A stretch of DNA of 58,764 bases from contig NZ_JAMXAY010000033.1 of the NCBI RefSeq assembly GCF_025460835.1, forward strand, positions 1 through 58,764, read 5' to 3'. The position numbers and the translations under genes are program-made. Shown in pieces: positions 31,331-38,892 of this stretch. A model generated the notes under the pieces. The model was not told the DNA's origin. It was given only the letters and a program-made list of their open reading frames with translations, and made no database searches. Source of the DNA: Parapedobacter soli. GTDB lineage: Bacteria; Bacteroidota; Bacteroidia; Sphingobacteriales; Sphingobacteriaceae. Positions within the stretch are counted from its first letter, which is position 1. The number at the start of each line of letters is the position of its first letter.

Positions 31331-32113
31331 TTAGATGTTGCTCACAAATTCGTTCACCGCTTTCACCGGATCGGCGGTCTTCATAAAGTTCTCGCCGATC
31401 AGAAACCCGTCGAAACCGGCACCGCGCAACTGGCGGATCGTGTCGGGATTGCTGATGCCGCTTTCAGAAACCTTTACAAACTTATCGGGAATCAGCTCCA
31501 CCAATTCCAGCGAGTGGTCGAGCGATACCGTGAAGTCTTTCAGGTTACGGTTGTTCACGCCGATCGCATCTATGCTATCCATCACACTGCGGTCCAGCTC
31601 CTCGCGGTTGTGTACTTCCAGCAGCACATTCAGCCCAAGGGACTTAGCCGATTCAGACAGTGCTTTTACCTGGCCCGCATCCAGTGCCGCCGCAATCAAT
31701 AGGATGATGTCGGCCCCGTAGGCCTTGGCCTCTATAATCTGGTACTCGTCTATGATAAACTCCTTGCGCAGCAGCGGCACCCGCAATACCGCCCGTGCGG
31801 CAGCCAGATCATCGAGGCTGCCTTTAAAGAAAGGGCCGTCGGTAAGTACGGATACCGCCGAAACACCCGCTTCCTGGTACCCTTGCACCACGGTTTCCAC
31901 CGTCGCGCGGTCATTGATCATCCCTTTTGACGGCGACGCGCGCTTGTACTCTGCAATGATACCGTTCTTCCCACGGTCATTTATAGCATCGTGTAGCGGG
32001 AGGCAAGTGCGTGCAAAAAGGGGCTTCTGCTCCAGGTCGGCATGCCGCGTGGCAGCCTTCGCCTGTTCAACTTCAACAAATTTGCTGGCAATTATTTTAT
32101 CTAAGATAGTCAT
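31331..32113 (-). CDS. trpC: indole-3-glycerol-phosphate synthase
   Basis: A 260-residue TIM barrel that closes the indole ring from CdRP. It starts MTILDKIIASKFVEVE and has IAEYKRASPSKG near 60, LLRKEFIIDEYQI near 118, VLLEVHNREELD near 166 and SESGISNPDTIRQLRGAGFDGFLIGENFM near 220, all typical. The ATG at 32113 overlaps the trpG stop by 4 bp (ATGA), indicating translational coupling. Monofunctional: no TrpF domain. trpD is not between trpG and trpC as in many operons. Confidence 0.97.
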   Translation of the reverse strand: MTILDKIIASKFVEVEQAKAATRHADLEQKPLFARTCLPLHDAINDRGKNGIIAEYKRASPSKGMINDRATVETVVQGYQEAGVSAVSVLTDGPFFKGSLDDLAAARAVLRVPLLRKEFIIDEYQIIEAKAYGADIILLIAAALDAGQVKALSESAKSLGLNVLLEVHNREELDRSVMDSIDAIGVNNRNLKDFTVSLDHSLELVELIPDKFVKVSESGISNPDTIRQLRGAGFDGFLIGENFMKTADPVKAVNEFVSNI

Positions 32114-32751
32114 TGTTCTGCGGTTTGTGAGGTGTGTCCAATAGCCGGCGACGGTTCCTGTGCCGGGGCCAACCAATTAGCGATCATGGCTTTGCCATGC
32201 TGTGTGAGCACCGATTCGGGGTGAAACTGCAATCCTTTTACGTCGAGTGCCGTATGCGAGAGGGCCATGATCACGCCCTGCTCATCTTCAGCGGTGATGC
32301 GCAGCACATCCGGGAACCCTTCGCGTGCCACGGCCCACGAGTGGTAGCGCCCTACGGGGAATGACTGCGGCAGCCCACCGAAAATCGGCTCATCGGTTAC
32401 CTTGATGATCAGCGGCGTCGCCGTGCCGTGCACCGGTTTACTCAAATTGTACAGGGTGCCGCCATATACCTCGGCTATGGCCTGCATGCCCAGGCAGATG
32501 CCGAGGATGCTCTTTGTTGCACCGTATTGGCGTATCACGTCCAGTAGCAGGCCCGCCTCTTTGGGTATGCCCGGCCCTGGCGAAAGCAGGATCTTGTCAA
32601 AAGCAGCAACCTCTTCCAGCTCGAATTTATCATTGCGCCATACGGTGGCATCGTGCCCGCACTCATGTAAGAGGTGTACCAGATTAAATGTGAATGAATC
32701 ATAATTGTCGATCACCAGTATCCGGGGTGATTGATTTTGTGCGCTGTCCAT
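32110..32751 (-). CDS. trpG: anthranilate synthase glutamine amidotransferase subunit
   Basis: A 213-residue class I glutamine amidotransferase. DNYDSFTFNLVHLL opens the domain; the catalytic Cys is in LGICLGMQAI near 80 and the His/Glu pair in LQFHPESVLT near 173. It feeds ammonia to TrpE. A TTG at 32766 is possible but the ATG at 32751 (MDSAQNQSPRILVI) is preferred, 11 bp after trpE. It may also serve para-aminobenzoate synthesis. Confidence 0.96.
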   Translation of the reverse strand: MDSAQNQSPRILVIDNYDSFTFNLVHLLHECGHDATVWRNDKFELEEVAAFDKILLSPGPGIPKEAGLLLDVIRQYGATKSILGICLGMQAIAEVYGGTLYNLSKPVHGTATPLIIKVTDEPIFGGLPQSFPVGRYHSWAVAREGFPDVLRITAEDEQGVIMALSHTALDVKGLQFHPESVLTQHGKAMIANWLAPAQEPSPAIGHTSQTAEQ

Positions 32752-32762
32752 TTTTCCTAATA

Positions 32763-34172
32763 TCAAATTTCCTGTGCCAGCTCCAATGCTTTACGCAGTG
32801 CGGCAATCTTGTTGTTTACTTCCTGTAGTTCTTTCTCCGGGTCAGAATCGGCCACAATGCCCGCCCCTGCCTGGTAATGTAATGTATTGTTCCGGCTCAA
32901 GAAGGAGCGGATCATGATGGCGTGGTTGAAATCGTCGTTGAAGCCCATGTAGCCAATGGCGCCGCTGTAGAAACTCCGCTGGAAGTTTTCATAGCGGTCG
33001 ATGAGCTGCATGGCCATGTGCTTGGGTGCACCGCTGAGTGTACCCGCCGGGAACGTGTCGCCGACCACATCGAACGAGTTCACCCCCTCGCGCAGCGTAC
33101 CGCACACCTTAGATACCAAGTGGATGATGTGCGAATAATACTGCGCTTCTTTGTAAGTCTTCACGTGCACATCCTCACAATGCCGGCTCAGGTCATTGCG
33201 GGCCAGGTCCACGAGCATCACATGCTCCGCGCTTTCCTTCGGGTCTTCCTTCAATGCCTCCGCAATTTTTTCGTCCTGCGTCTGGTTGCCGCTTCGTTTG
33301 AATGTACCCGCAATGGGGTAAATGGTAGCTTCCCGGTTGCGGATGGTCAGCTGCGCTTCGGGCGATGAGCCGAAAAGCTTAAAGTCGCCATAGTCAAAGT
33401 AAAAGAGGTATGGCGAGGGGTTGATGGAGCGCAGCGTACGGTATACGTTGAACTCATCGCCCAGAAACGGGCGTGAAAATGCCCGTGATGGGACAATCTG
33501 GAATACGTCCCCCCGGAAAATATGCGTTTTCATCTTAGCTACAAGCGCCTTGAAATCCGCATCGACCATGTTCGACGCTTCGGCCCCATTGAGCGAGAAA
33601 TTATACTCAGGGAAGTTTTTGTTCTGGATGAGGTATTGGATTTTTTCCAACCCCGATGGACTAGTGTCGCCCTCCAGCTGGTGCTCAAAGATATACAGCT
33701 GGTTGCGGAAGTGGTCGATCGCAATCACGTAGCGGTAAACGTGGTATTGCAGATACGGGATATCCCGCTGTGGCTCCGGCGGGGTCTCCAGGCGTATATC
33801 CTCGAAATGGGTAACCGTATCGAACGTGAAGAAACCGAAAAGACCATTGGAGATGAAGTTGAACTCGTCGCTGTTATTGCTCACAAAAGCACTCCTGAAA
33901 GCCGATACCTCCTGGCGGAGGTTAATCGCTGATGCTGCCTTCCGTGTCGCCGGTTGGCCGGGGTATTCAATCTCCAGCGCATCGCGGTCTAGCCTGATGC
34001 CCCCAATCGGTTCGCAGCAGATGTAGCTCATGTTATTTTCGCGGCTATGGTAGTCAGAGCTTTCCAGCAGCAGGCTGTTGGGAAACACATCACGGAGCCG
34101 CAGGTATGTACTTACCGGCGTAGTCGTATCTGCCAGCAATTGTTTGTAAACGGTTTTAAATCGGTATGCCAT
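32763..34172 (-). CDS. trpE: anthranilate synthase component I
   Basis: A 469-residue chorismate-using enzyme forming anthranilate. The N-terminal LLESSDYHS near 34 is the tryptophan feedback-binding element, so the enzyme should be allosterically inhibited. Catalytic-domain marks are FQIVPSRAFSRPF near 228, SPEAQLTIRNREATIYPIAGTFKR near 272, DLARNDLSRHCE near 325 and AGAGIVADSDPEKELQE near 440. The ATG at 34172 is chosen over the GTG at 34178. An attenuator and leader peptide precede it. Confidence 0.97.
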   Translation of the reverse strand: MAYRFKTVYKQLLADTTTPVSTYLRLRDVFPNSLLLESSDYHSRENNMSYICCEPIGGIRLDRDALEIEYPGQPATRKAASAINLRQEVSAFRSAFVSNNSDEFNFISNGLFGFFTFDTVTHFEDIRLETPPEPQRDIPYLQYHVYRYVIAIDHFRNQLYIFEHQLEGDTSPSGLEKIQYLIQNKNFPEYNFSLNGAEASNMVDADFKALVAKMKTHIFRGDVFQIVPSRAFSRPFLGDEFNVYRTLRSINPSPYLFYFDYGDFKLFGSSPEAQLTIRNREATIYPIAGTFKRSGNQTQDEKIAEALKEDPKESAEHVMLVDLARNDLSRHCEDVHVKTYKEAQYYSHIIHLVSKVCGTLREGVNSFDVVGDTFPAGTLSGAPKHMAMQLIDRYENFQRSFYSGAIGYMGFNDDFNHAIMIRSFLSRNNTLHYQAGAGIVADSDPEKELQEVNNKIAALRKALELAQEI

Positions 34173-34196
34173 ATTCACTTGTTAACTAAATCACAT

Positions 34197-34230
34197 AAAA
34201 AAACCCGACGGATTCTCAGAACGTCGGGCT
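34197..34230 (-). terminator. trp attenuator (terminator 3:4 hairpin)
   Basis: On the minus strand, CCCGACG (34228-34222) and CGTCGGG (34210-34204) form a perfect 7-bp stem with an 11-nt loop, directly followed by seven T (34203-34197). It lies 25 bp before trpE. An upstream CGTCGGGCT (34288-34280), inside the leader peptide gene, is perfectly complementary to the 5' arm with its two preceding bases (34230-34222), giving a competing antiterminator. Confidence 0.9.
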
Positions 34231-34254
34231 AAATATTCCAAAGCCTTTGGTTGA

Positions 34255-34341
34255 TTAGGAATGTATCACAGTTCCCTCAAGCCCGACGCTATCGCTATCG
34301 AGCCACCACCATAATCCGATGAGGAACCTATCCGTAATCAT
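34255..34341 (-). CDS. trpL: trp operon leader peptide
   Basis: A 28-codon frame ending TAA, with three consecutive Trp codons at positions 11-13 (34311-34303), located between the trpE promoter and the attenuator. It begins MITDRFLIGL and ends GTVIHS. The arrangement is the classical one for tryptophan attenuation: a protector hairpin (GCTCGAT at 34303-34297 with GTCGGGC at 34287-34281, two G-U pairs) starts at the last Trp codon, its second arm also forms the antiterminator, and the terminator follows. The -7 box ends 6 nt before the ATG, so the leader mRNA would be leaderless. The peptide itself is not expected to have another function. Confidence 0.9.
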   Translation of the reverse strand: MITDRFLIGLWWWLDSDSVGLEGTVIHS

Positions 34342-34347
34342 ACAGAG

Positions 34348-34377
34348 CAAAAATAGGAAAAAAATTAACGAAACAAA
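34348..34377 (-). promoter_or_regulatory. trp operon promoter (TTTG-N18-TATTTTTG)
   Basis: On the minus strand TTTG (34377-34374) and TATTTTTG (34355-34348) with 18 nt between them. The box ends 6 nt before the trpL ATG. It lies 28 bp past the trmD stop codon, so trp transcription is separable from trmD. Confidence 0.75.
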
Positions 34378-34405
34378 TTTTATTTTCTTGCTATTTGCCG
34401 CTTGC

Positions 34406-35083
34406 TCAGTCGTCCAGCAAGTCGGGCCGCCGGGCTTCGGTACGGGCAAGCGCCTGTTCGTCGCGCCACCGGTTTATCGCGGCCTCATTGCCGCTGAGTA
34501 GCACATCGGGCACCTTGTGCCCCCGCCAGTCGGCCGGCCGGGTATAAATCGGTGCGTCCAGCAGCCCCCCTTGGAACGAATCGGAGAGTGCCGATGTCTC
34601 ATCCGATAGCACCCCCGGCAGCAGTCGCGCCACCGCATCCACCAGTACCGCCGCCGGCAGCTCCCCGCCCGAAAGCACATAGTCGCCGATGGAAAGCTCC
34701 CGGGTCACGAAAACATCGCGGATGCGTTGGTCAATGCCCTTGTAATGCCCGCAGAGGATGATGAGGTTGCCTTTGGTCGAGAGGTTGTTGGCGATCGACT
34801 GGTTGAGGGTTTCCCCATCCGGCGTCATGAAAATCACTTCGTCGTATTCCCGCTCGGCCTGCAACTTTTCAATGCATGCCGCAAAGGGAGCTATCTGCAT
34901 CACCATACCACTGCCGCCTCCATAAGGGTAGTCGTCCACGCTTCTATGCTTATTATCAGCATAGTCGCGCAGGTTATGCACCACAATCTCGCAAAGCCCC
35001 TTTTTCTGGGCGCGTTGCAGTATCGAGTGCATAAAAGGGCTTTCGAGCAAGCCCGGCAGTACCGTGATGATGTCAAACCGCAT
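34406..35083 (-). CDS. trmD: tRNA (guanine37-N1)-methyltransferase
   Basis: A 225-residue SPOUT-class enzyme that methylates G37 next to the anticodon. The trefoil-knot motifs are [15 protein letters not shown] near 53, [12 protein letters not shown] near 112 and [20 protein letters not shown] near 130; the catalytic Asp follows in the C-terminal part. No rpsP, rimM or rplS is adjacent, unlike in Proteobacteria. The promoter box ends 4 nt before the ATG. Confidence 0.97.
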
Positions 35084-36312: not shown

Positions 36313-38634
36313 CTACACGGCCTCCGCTACGCCGCGCAGCGTCTTCGCCGCATCAACCATCGCTTCCAGCGCGGCCTTCGTTTCGGGCCAAGCGCGGGTC
36401 TTCAGGCCGCAGTCGGGGTTTACCCAAAGCTGCGCCGCCGGGATCACCGCTTTCGCCTTTTCAAGCAGCTTCACCATCTCCTCCTTGCTCGGCACGCGCG
36501 GCGAGTGGATATCGTAAACACCCGGGCCGATATCGTTCGGGTAGTTGAAGTCGGCAAATGCGTCCAGCAGCTCCATCTGCGAGCGCGACGTCTCGATTGT
36601 GATCACGTCGGCATCCATGGCCGCAATGTGCTCGATGATGTCGTTAAACTCTGAGTAGCACATGTGGGTGTGTATCTGTGTGTCGTCTTCTACGTTTGAT
36701 GAAGATACGCGGAAAGCACGCACAGCCCAGTCCAGGTAAGCTTTATGGTCTGCCTTGCGCAGCGGCAGGCCTTCGCGGATCGCCGGCTCGTCTATCTGGA
36801 TGATTTTGATACCGGCTTTTTCCAGCGCCTGCACCTCATCCAAAATCGCCAATGCAATCTGGTAGGTGGTTTCAGACCGCGGCTGGTCATTGCGCACGAA
36901 CGACCACTGCAAGATGGTTACCGGCCCGGTAAGCATGCCCTTCACCGGCCGGTCGGTCAGCGTTTGCGCATAAGCCGACCAACGCACGGTCATGTCGCTC
37001 GGGCGCGATACATCGCCATAGATAATGGGCGGCTTCACACAGCGCGAGCCGTACGATTGTACCCAGCCGTTTTTCGTAAAGGCGTAGCCCGAGAGCTGCT
37101 CGCCGAAGTATTCCACCATGTCGTTGCGCTCAAACTCGCCATGTACCAGCACGTCGATGTCCAGGTCCTCCTGCAGGCGTATCGCCCGCTCCGTCTCCTC
37201 GGCAATGAGCTTATCATACTCTTCCTGCGTAATAGCACCCTTCTTCAGGTCAGCGCGCCACTTGCGCACATCCCTGGTCTGCGGGAATGAGCCAATCGTC
37301 GTGGTAGCAAAAGCAGGCAGGTTAAATTTGGCTTGTTGTTTCGCCTTGCGGTCGGCAAACGTACTGGTACGCTTGGCGTCGTCGTCCGTAATGTTCTTCA
37401 CCCGTGTTTTCACTGCTTCGCGGTGGATGAGCGCCGACGTGCGGCGGCTTTCCTGTGCCGCTTTATTCGCCTCAAAGCGGGCCGTTACGGCGCTGTCCGC
37501 GTCGCCCGTCGCCAGTGCAGCCAGGTCGGTTACTTCCGTAAGCTTCTGCTTGGCAAAAGCCAGCCAGTTTTTCACTTCCGCGGGGAGCGACTCTTCGTTG
37601 TCTTCCAGGTCCAGGTCGAACGGCACATGCAGCAGCGAGCTGGATGGCGCCACCCATACCCGGTCGGCACCCAGTGCGTCAACCGCCTGTTTGATTTTAG
37701 CAAGCGAAGCTTCGTAGTCGTTTTTCCAGATGTTGCGGCCGTCTACCACCCCGAGGGATAGCGTCAGCCCGGCCGGCACACTGCCCAGCAGCTCATCGAG
37801 CTGGTTTTCGCCACGCACCAGGTCGATGTGCAATGCCTGCACCGGCAGCCCAAGGGCGGTCTGTGCATTCTCGCGCAGCGCCTCGAAGTAAGTGGCCACA
37901 AGCACCTTGGTGCCTTTTGCGGCAGCCGCCAAGCGGTTGTACACCGTTTGGTAAAGGGCGCGGGTCCGGTCGTCTATATCCAAGGCGAGGAACGGCTCGT
38001 CGAGTTGCACCCATTCCGCACCGGCTGCGGCCAGCTTACCCAATAATTCTTCATAAACCGGCAGCAGGCGCTCTATCAGGTCCAGCCGGTCAAACCCAGC
38101 CTCTTTCTCCTTGCCCAGCAGCAGGTAGGTAATGGGCCCCAGCAGCACCGGCTTGGTCGCAATGCCCAGCTCCTTGGCTTCGTTAAATTCGTTGATCACC
38201 TTCTCCGAGGTGAGGCGGAACTGCTGGTCTTTTACAAATTCCGGAACGATATAGTGGTAGTTCGTATCAAACCATTTGGTCATTTCCATGGCCGTCACGT
38301 CCAGCCCATCTTGCTGGAAACCGCGCGCCATCGCAAAGTACAGGTCGAGGTTGTAAGAAGATTTGCCTTCCAGGGCAAAGCCCTCATACCGGGCCGGTAC
38401 CGCACCCACGGTAAGCGTCAGGTCGAGCACTTGGTCGTAAAACGAAAAATCGTTGGATGGGATGAGTGCGATGCCTGCCTCCTTTTGGGTTTTCCAATTC
38501 CCCTCGCGGATGGTGCGCCCTGCTTCCAGCAGCTCCTGTTGGCTGATCTTTTTTGCCCAATAGGCCTCGTTAGCTTTTTTCAGCTCCCGAAGGGCTCCGA
38601 TACGCGGGTAACCCAAATTGTTGGTTTTTAACAT
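36313..38634 (-). CDS. metE: cobalamin-independent methionine synthase
   Basis: A 773-residue zinc enzyme that methylates homocysteine with methyltetrahydropteroyl-triglutamate. Both barrel halves are present. C-terminal zinc ligands are visible in HTHMCYSEF (His, Cys) near 655, in IETSRS and in NPDCGLKTR (Cys) near 742; ATTTIGSFPQTRDVRK near 437 opens the second half. The N-terminal NLGYPRIGALRELKKA is the classic start. A SAM-I riboswitch in the 5' leader and a terminator after the gene make it a single-gene unit that is probably switched off when S-adenosylmethionine is abundant. Confidence 0.98.
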   Translation of the reverse strand: MLKTNNLGYPRIGALRELKKANEAYWAKKISQQELLEAGRTIREGNWKTQKEAGIALIPSNDFSFYDQVLDLTLTVGAVPARYEGFALEGKSSYNLDLYFAMARGFQQDGLDVTAMEMTKWFDTNYHYIVPEFVKDQQFRLTSEKVINEFNEAKELGIATKPVLLGPITYLLLGKEKEAGFDRLDLIERLLPVYEELLGKLAAAGAEWVQLDEPFLALDIDDRTRALYQTVYNRLAAAAKGTKVLVATYFEALRENAQTALGLPVQALHIDLVRGENQLDELLGSVPAGLTLSLGVVDGRNIWKNDYEASLAKIKQAVDALGADRVWVAPSSSLLHVPFDLDLEDNEESLPAEVKNWLAFAKQKLTEVTDLAALATGDADSAVTARFEANKAAQESRRTSALIHREAVKTRVKNITDDDAKRTSTFADRKAKQQAKFNLPAFATTTIGSFPQTRDVRKWRADLKKGAITQEEYDKLIAEETERAIRLQEDLDIDVLVHGEFERNDMVEYFGEQLSGYAFTKNGWVQSYGSRCVKPPIIYGDVSRPSDMTVRWSAYAQTLTDRPVKGMLTGPVTILQWSFVRNDQPRSETTYQIALAILDEVQALEKAGIKIIQIDEPAIREGLPLRKADHKAYLDWAVRAFRVSSSNVEDDTQIHTHMCYSEFNDIIEHIAAMDADVITIETSRSQMELLDAFADFNYPNDIGPGVYDIHSPRVPSKEEMVKLLEKAKAVIPAAQLWVNPDCGLKTRAWPETKAALEAMVDAAKTLRGVAEAV

Positions 38635-38745
38635 GATATTTTATGAATAAATTAATGTACAACTCATCAAAGCCCCTGCCATGCAGGCAACGGGAATCTT
38701 TTTCTGGATGCTTCGGGGAGAGGGCACAAGGGTAAGTTGTGTCGG

Positions 38746-38858
38746 CTTATTTTTCTCCTGCCGCGCGGGCGGGAGTAGAATTTAGCACCTTGTTTGCCAG
38801 CGGGCAGACAGGTTGCTAAGGCTTCACAGGGTCCATTCCCTCTGCCTTTCTCCATAAG
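38746..38858 (-). ncRNA. SAM-I (S-box) riboswitch upstream of metE
   Basis: The minus strand shows the SAM-I core in order: P1 5' arm CTTAT (38858-38854), GGAGAAAGGC, the P2 loop region GAGGGAATGGACCC, then GAAGCCTTAGCAACC, a P3 hairpin (GTCTGCCCGCTGGCAAAC), AAGGTGCTAAATTC, a P4 hairpin, and the P1 3' arm ATAAG (38750-38746). The kink-turn and SAM-contact segments are well conserved. The expression platform is less clear: a CCTGC/GCAGG hairpin lies 35-50 nt before the metE ATG, without a strong T-run, so control could be translational. Confidence 0.92.
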
Positions 38859-38892
38859 CGGCCGCTAAGGTCGGGATTTAGACTGGAAAATC

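Follow-up and report, generated by a model that had tools for sequence, protein, structure and literature searches.

The trpE gene of Parapedobacter soli is preceded by a short reading frame with three consecutive Trp codons; at issue is whether this region is a tryptophan attenuator and how ribosomes would read a leader whose start codon is predicted to lie almost at the 5′ end of its mRNA. We analyzed the question in a contig of 58,764 nt (NZ_JAMXAY010000033.1, hereafter the window), in which trmD lies upstream of the trp leader and trpG-like and trpC-like genes lie downstream of trpE. The ATG at 34172 was taken as the start of trpE, where the list of open reading frames has a GTG at 34178; if this ATG is the start, the T run of the leader lies 24 nt from trpE. 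On a TrpE tree, the protein of the window adjoins that of Parapedobacter pyrenivorans (branch 99/95; 90% identity).

Read along the minus strand from 34377 to 34197, the region consists, in order, of TTTG, 18 nt, TATTTTTG, 6 nt, ATG, a 28-codon reading frame (trpL), four arms and seven T (Table 1). The trpL ATG occupies 34341-34339 and its TAA stop codon 34257-34255. In the protector helix, GCTCGAT (34303-34297) pairs with GTCGGGC (34287-34281) through seven pairs, two of them G-U; in the antiterminator, CGTCGGGCT (34288-34280) pairs with AGCCCGACG (34230-34222) through nine perfect pairs, or 11 with one G-U in the helix search; and in the terminator stem CCCGACG (34228-34222) pairs with CGTCGGG (34210-34204). 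The four arms form 1:2, 2:3 or 3:4, which are mutually exclusive, and the core of segment 2, GCGTCGGG, begins 13 nt after the last Trp codon. Re-reading of the window sequence recovered each element reported in a preliminary description of this DNA, all in the same places. The attenuator logic is the classical one of Yanofsky, and the locus has in common with the E. coli trp attenuator the Trp codons in a leader ORF, the sharing of arms among 1:2, 2:3 and 3:4, and the position before trpE. It differs from E. coli in that the start codon is at or near the predicted 5′ end, leaving no room for a Shine-Dalgarno sequence, in that the position of the stop codon is free relative to arm 2, and in that the window has no match to Rfam Trp_leader. 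A simple consensus scan of 33900-34700 gave no sigma-70 promoter, and a terminator scan of the same interval gave no match to the narrow terminator type that it recognizes. The single-sequence fold of the leader is only mildly unusual (z of -1.86; 9 of 200 shuffles equally stable), and the case against chance is comparative, as it comes from the Trp run, the promoter spacing, the arm spacing and the covarying arms.

Table 1. Elements of the trp leader and adjoining genes, in window coordinates.
Feature	Position	Strand	Basis or remark
-33 element TTTG, Bacteroidota-type promoter	34374..34377	-	18 nt upstream of -7 box
-7 box TATTTTTG	34348..34355	-	ends 6 nt before trpL ATG
Predicted 5′ leader of about 2 nt, start at about 34343	34342..34343	-	inferred from -7 box position in F. 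psychrophilum
trpL leader peptide ORF, MITDRFLIGLWWWLDSDSVGLEGTVIHS, 28 sense codons	34255..34341	-	window sequence
Trp sensor, three consecutive TGG codons (WWW, codons 11-13)	34303..34311	-	window sequence
Segment 1, protector arm	34297..34304	-	helix search and alignment
Segment 2, AGCGTCGGGCT, partner of segment 1 or segment 3	34280..34290	-	helix search and alignment
TCAACCAAAGGCTTTGG in antiterminator loop, contains conserved CAACC	34238..34254	-	CAACC in 54/81 loci
Segment 3, AGCCCGACGTT, antiterminator 3′ arm and terminator 5′ arm	34220..34230	-	helix search and alignment
Segment 4, CGTCGGG, terminator 3′ arm	34204..34210	-	terminator search and alignment
U tract of terminator, seven T	34197..34203	-	window sequence
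trpE, anthranilate synthase component I, regulated gene (predicted)	32763..34172	-	Pfam PF00425 and PF04715
trpG-like glutamine amidotransferase, next downstream of trpE	32110..32766	-	PF00117
trpC-like indole-3-glycerol phosphate synthase	31331..32176	-	PF00218

For comparison, the TrpE protein was used to find related loci, and the best 80 of 583 confirmed trpE candidates, nearly all Sphingobacteriaceae by name, were combined with the window into a set of 81 loci. In each of these 81, a leader ORF with two or more Trp codons in a row starts about 150-330 nt upstream of trpE (in one locus, L077, the ORF start was set by hand), and each has a terminator hairpin with a T run between the leader ORF and trpE. 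Between arm 2 and the terminator there is also a AATCAACCAAAACC-like stretch, with CAACC in 54 of these 81 loci; it is located 17-29 nt before arm 3, independent of the position of the stop codon. In a wider sample, trpE was matched in 211 of 247 genomes. Among the 55 trpE loci of the same class (own locus excluded; six from the same family), 54 have a Trp leader before trpE, 52 with a WW-containing ORF and two with Trp-Leu-Trp, and L127 is the only one of the 55 without a Trp leader; an intrinsic terminator is present in 51 of the 52 loci with a WW ORF. The two Trp-Leu-Trp loci (L085 and L086, from G138 and G080 of one same-family genus), read by eye, have WLW in place of the Trp run and keep a -7-like box and a terminator-like hairpin. 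Of 25 phylum-level loci selected among the matches listed, 16 have a plausible Trp leader and in nine it is absent or dubious. Arms in the same-class and phylum-level loci were searched coarsely, and what we conclude about the antiterminator applies outside the Flavobacterium-like loci. The terminator of the family f4 loci among L087-L126 differs from that of the others and is strongly conserved, with GGCTTGTC...GACAAGCC or a close variant as its typical form, and their trpE leaders encode peptides such as MKTILNNTWWWNNLRQSS; the coarse arm search resolved no antiterminator partner in them.

The three helices were assessed in an alignment of the window with 50 distinct leaders, all with exactly the 13-nt spacing between the last Trp codon and arm 2; the remainder of the 81 are 27 loci with other spacing and three duplicates. 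Standard pairs fill 88.2% (1:2), 90.7% (2:3) and 98.9% (3:4) of the cells in these 51 leaders. This level was reached by 1, 0 and 0 of 500 shuffles, respectively, and pairing dropped to 26-62%, 26-40% and 28-51% when the helices were slid. Similarly, 7, 0 and 0 of 500 shuffles attained the covariation score, a comparison in which relatedness alone can lift sequences above shuffles even if they share no structure. The number of pairs with changes on both sides did not exceed the shuffles (164, 451 and 56 of 500), nor did the appearance of further pair types (161, 499 and 303 of 500). The covariation of the three hairpins that the preliminary description had proposed as a check is thus borne out as pairing beyond both the shuffle and the slide controls, but not as changes on both sides, because the arms vary little, probably as a consequence of each base of CCCGACG being tied to several other arms at once. 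When arms were permuted among the 51 distinct triples, 48 (2:3) and 42 (3:4) of 5000 permutations scored equally high, a support that is modest because the arms hardly vary. At one position, arms 2, 3 and 4 switch together from G-C to A-U in 15 loci, and eight other loci have an A in arm 2 opposite a C in arm 3 there. On the TrpE tree these 15 loci belong either to the S. multivorum-S. faecium group or to the S. litopenaei group, and both supported branches and G-C loci stand between the two. A count on that tree, with G-C loci left out, gave three changes, two of them forced; the A-U state may be one gain with later losses.

Locus by locus, the arm 2 and arm 3 duplex reached a p of at most 0.05 against 200 shuffles in 44 of 81 loci, and L077 is among those that failed. 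Mismatches between these arms are frequent in Pedobacter-, Daejeonella- and Olivibacter-type loci, several mismatched loci gain an inner stem (for example TATTTGT with ACAAATA), and a helix search that admits no mismatches understates the antiterminator of the Pedobacter-type loci, in which mismatched or extended forms are present. The predicted fold of the stretch from arm 2 to arm 3 has at least four pairs between the arms in 80 of 81 loci, L077 being the exception, a result that does not count as independent evidence, complementarity having been the criterion for arm 2. In the predicted fold of the free leader, with the Trp run unmasked, the terminator wins in 76 of 81 loci; when the leader is masked through 11 nt after the Trp run and segment 4 is absent, the antiterminator is predicted in 77 of 81. 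The mutually exclusive 1:2, 2:3 and 3:4 pairings are kept across the relatives, in a form that appears weaker in the Pedobacter-Daejeonella-Olivibacter loci. The reading of this region as a complete Trp attenuator with mutually exclusive arms is therefore supported both by the window sequence and by conservation in relatives.

The Trp attenuator is real and conserved, with a near-leaderless start that is predicted, and the region is very probably a ribosome-mediated transcription attenuator of the trpE-trpG-trpC genes with a near-leaderless trpL. From the arms, their spacing and their conservation we infer the following course. Transcription would start about 2 nt before the trpL ATG, and ribosomes would load on the near-leaderless start codon. 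When charged tRNA-Trp is scarce, a ribosome would stall at the three Trp codons and cover segment 1; segment 2, from 13 nt onward and just past the leading edge of the stalled ribosome, would pair with segment 3 to form the antiterminator, and RNA polymerase would continue into trpE. When Trp is plentiful, the ribosome would cross segment 2 or leave, so that 2:3 is lost or 1:2 reforms, and 3:4 and the U tract would form and stop transcription.

How the terminating state is reached bears on the position of the stop codon. In E. coli the stop codon is a fixed element, and a ribosome at the leader stop covers arm 2. This arrangement is not found in the window, where the stop codon ends 25 nt past the antiterminator arm and 27 nt past the 8-nt arm 2 core; we treat stop-codon masking as an E. 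coli trait and not as one that defines leader-peptide attenuators generally. Across the 81 loci, the distance from the end of the arm 2 core to the end of the stop codon ranges from -8 to +34 nt: in 27 loci the stop codon ends ahead of arm 2 or no more than 7 nt beyond it, and in 54, the window included, it ends 9-34 nt beyond it. The late stop codon remarked on in the preliminary description is real in the window but not conserved in relatives. The spacing between the last Trp codon and the start of arm 2, by comparison, is 13 nt in 54 of the 81 loci (the best 80 of 583 and the window) and 11-16 nt in 79. Part of this constancy could be made by the method, which located arm 2 as the best complement of arm 3 within a 20-nt range and favours pairing and GGG; a strong peak at one value is not easily produced in this way. 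Given the size of the ribosome footprint, the leading edge of a ribosome stalled at the Trp codons would lie just short of arm 2. A conserved distance from sensor to arm 2 beside a variable stop position fits such a stalled ribosome and argues that the stop codon is not a fixed element as in E. coli.

Codon choice within arm 2 points the same way as the pairing. Among the 54 loci with 13-nt spacing, two have no Gly in arm 2, and in the other 52 the Gly codon is GGG in 48, compared with 10.8% in trpE of the same loci; in the same group Val is GTC in 30 of 30 (19.3% in trpE) and Ile is ATC in 17 of 17 (41.5%). As read from these sequences, codon choice in arm 2 follows the RNA and not the peptide; the counts are not independent draws, because the loci are related and were picked by complementarity.

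The preliminary description had proposed that, in a leaderless attenuator, termination depends on release of the ribosome and reforming of 1:2 and not on a ribosome covering segment 2. The 54 loci with a stop codon well past arm 2, the window among them, agree with this proposal. However, by footprint size a ribosome at a stop codon no more than 7 nt past arm 2 should cover that arm, as could happen in the other 27 loci, a ribosome still crossing arm 2 would act likewise, and of the three helices 1:2 is the one with the smallest share of paired cells. We regard dependence of termination on release as rather unlikely, if well short of negligible.

We then consider the start of the mRNA. In Flavobacterium psychrophilum the -7 box has been mapped at -12 to -5 (PMC9723704), so a gap of g nt between box and start codon implies a leader of about g-4 nt. 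A strict TAnnTTTG is present upstream of the Trp run in 75 of the 81 loci (the best 80 of 583 and the window), and in 74 of these 75 the first in-frame start codon follows the box by 3-10 nt; the gap is 7 nt in 38 loci and 6 nt in 17, and TTG occurs at about the -33 spacing in 64 of the 75. In 48 of the 75 this first start is the only ATG, GTG or TTG between the box and the Trp run. The exception is L077, which has no start codon after its strict box, and L011, L013, L015, L061, L069 and L074, which have no strict box, carry TTTG shortly before the ATG. By the same rule the mRNA would start about 0-6 nt before the trpL start codon in these loci, and in L050, with a gap of 3 nt, just inside the first codon. 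For the window, the earlier suggestion that the mRNA begins at or next to the ATG stands insofar as the start codon would lie almost at the 5′ end, but the predicted leader is about 2 nt (start at about 34343) and not exactly none.

Alternatively, the same Trp attenuator could have a leader, with transcripts that begin further upstream (readthrough from trmD being one possibility) and an ATG used like other Bacteroidota starts. The trpL frame is indeed open upstream to a TTG at 34449. Furthermore, among the 52 same-class loci with a WW ORF, scored with the box TAnn(n)TTTG, the gap is at most 10 nt in 21, 16-21 nt in another 21 (14 of them from one genus, g9 of family f4), 32 and 40 nt in two, and eight have no box. 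Leaderless spacing of trpL is thus frequent but not universal in the same-class sample, and the 16-21-nt gaps indicate that such a switch can be built without a leaderless start. Evidence against a longer leader in the close relatives comes from the tightly placed strict box in 74 of 75 loci and the accompanying TTG in 64 of 75, as well as the spacing in leaders for other amino acids. As a control, 15 hisG and 15 pheA loci were collected by family searches in the own genome and relatives, 21 genomes in all. His-rich and Phe-rich leader ORFs lie upstream of most of these hisG (L161-L175) and pheA (L176-L190) loci, own genome included (L166 and L186); they are likely further attenuators. The gap from box to ATG is 12-38 nt in 12 His leaders and 15-27 nt in 9 Phe leaders, and the same-class His leader L163, with a GTG 4 nt after its box, would be leaderless. 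No box was reported for two His and three Phe loci and no ORF for three Phe loci; L177, L178 and L183 count as lacking a box because another ORF was picked, though the usual Phe leader peptide is present. A first scan of the his and phe loci and of all 20 ilvD-family loci for a box 3-13 nt before a start returned only L162 (12 nt) and L163 (4 nt), both His, and nothing convincing was seen as an Ile/Leu/Val leader at 18 of 20 ilvD-family loci inspected. Tight spacing is therefore mostly, not strictly, specific to trpL, since all but one of the 13 His and 9 Phe leaders lie at 12-38 nt. Taken together, these observations make a leadered start of trpL improbable, and we retain the near-leaderless one.

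A leader that senses a protein or tRNA (T-box or TRAP-like), or some other structured regulator in which the ORF is incidental, might account for the conserved, unexplained CAACC in the antiterminator loop; however, consecutive Trp codons in 81 of 81 loci and the lack of any Rfam family (Trp_leader, T-box or others) at gathering score in the window, apart from a SAM riboswitch, leave this reading very little probability. A chance ORF beside a chance terminator is refuted by comparison and has practically none, as the same anatomy stands in the same place in the 80 related loci (the best of 583), even though the TTTG-ATG-TrpTrpTrp pattern matches once elsewhere in the genome and a backward control pattern twice. 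That second TTTG-ATG-WWW site of the own genome (G000:C145) was rejected, being antisense to a 467-aa ORF that we take to be pntB-like.

Leaderless trpL as such is not new; there are earlier examples from two other phyla. In Sinorhizobium meliloti, rnTrpL begins at the ATG of trpL and may function as a leaderless mRNA; trpLE(G) shares with the present locus a transcript 5′ end at the trpL ATG and ribosome-dependent attenuation before trpE(G), and differs in phylum, in its 14-aa peptide and in that its 5′ end is reported, while that of Parapedobacter is predicted (PMC7298713). The trpL1 of Streptomyces lividans likewise has a WWW peptide (18 aa), a leaderless start, and hairpins with a U-rich stretch before trpE, in another phylum and with a monocistronic trpE (PMC8079986). 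For Bacteroidota we found general remarks. Strong clues for leader-peptide attenuation before amino-acid operons are noted in F. psychrophilum, which shares its phylum with Parapedobacter; in the main text of that paper no word starts with trp or tryptophan, and the single use of leaderless refers to mRNAs in general (PMC9723704). In B. thetaiotaomicron, sORFs reminiscent of leader peptides occur in long 5′ UTRs (PMC7366714). In its accessible text, a 2010 survey gives leader peptides as known from Proteobacteria and Actinobacteria only, adds Firmicutes and includes no Bacteroidota (PMC2965389), and a paper on leader genes and reinitiation, likewise in its accessible text, names Bacteroidetes only for a distance peak (PMC4833913). 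Leaderless mRNAs are a minority in Bacteroidota: they make up 5.5% in F. psychrophilum (PMC9723704), leaders under 10 nt about 3.7% in B. thetaiotaomicron (PMC7366714), and 87% of F. johnsoniae leaders exceed 10 nt (PMC6847099). Among the top-ranked titles and abstracts of the searchable papers, none concerned a Bacteroidota trp leader peptide, leaderless or not. The earlier remark that no description of such a leader was known for this group accordingly survives for Bacteroidota, where a trp attenuator with a near-leaderless start is apparently undescribed in the searchable literature, but not for leaderless trpL, known from S. meliloti and S. lividans.

The comparison indicates that ribosome-mediated Trp attenuation is widespread in Bacteroidota, and it is probably old for that reason. 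We further speculate, tentatively and with less than even confidence, that these Trp attenuators are phylum-wide and largely undescribed, that trpL of the Sphingobacteriaceae has come under selection for a near-leaderless start, in contrast to most of the leaders for His and Phe in relatives, and that the switch reads only the position of the ribosome relative to arm 2, with the stop codon free; initiation at a bare AUG could then be a point of control in this phylum, where Shine-Dalgarno sequences are not used. The locus would offer a natural near-leaderless start, whose use could be read as transcription readthrough, in bacteria whose mRNAs are without Shine-Dalgarno sequences.

Two further observations concern the neighbourhood of the trp leader. 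The SAM riboswitch (RF00162, 67.8 bits) at 38744-38860 precedes a metE-like gene of the same strand (36313-38634). Between 35174 and 36131, a gene for a DUF2683 protein is followed by an ORF whose partial YoeB-like match falls below the Pfam cut-off and by a gene for a ParE-like toxin; these are perhaps toxin-antitoxin pairs, the first of them broken.
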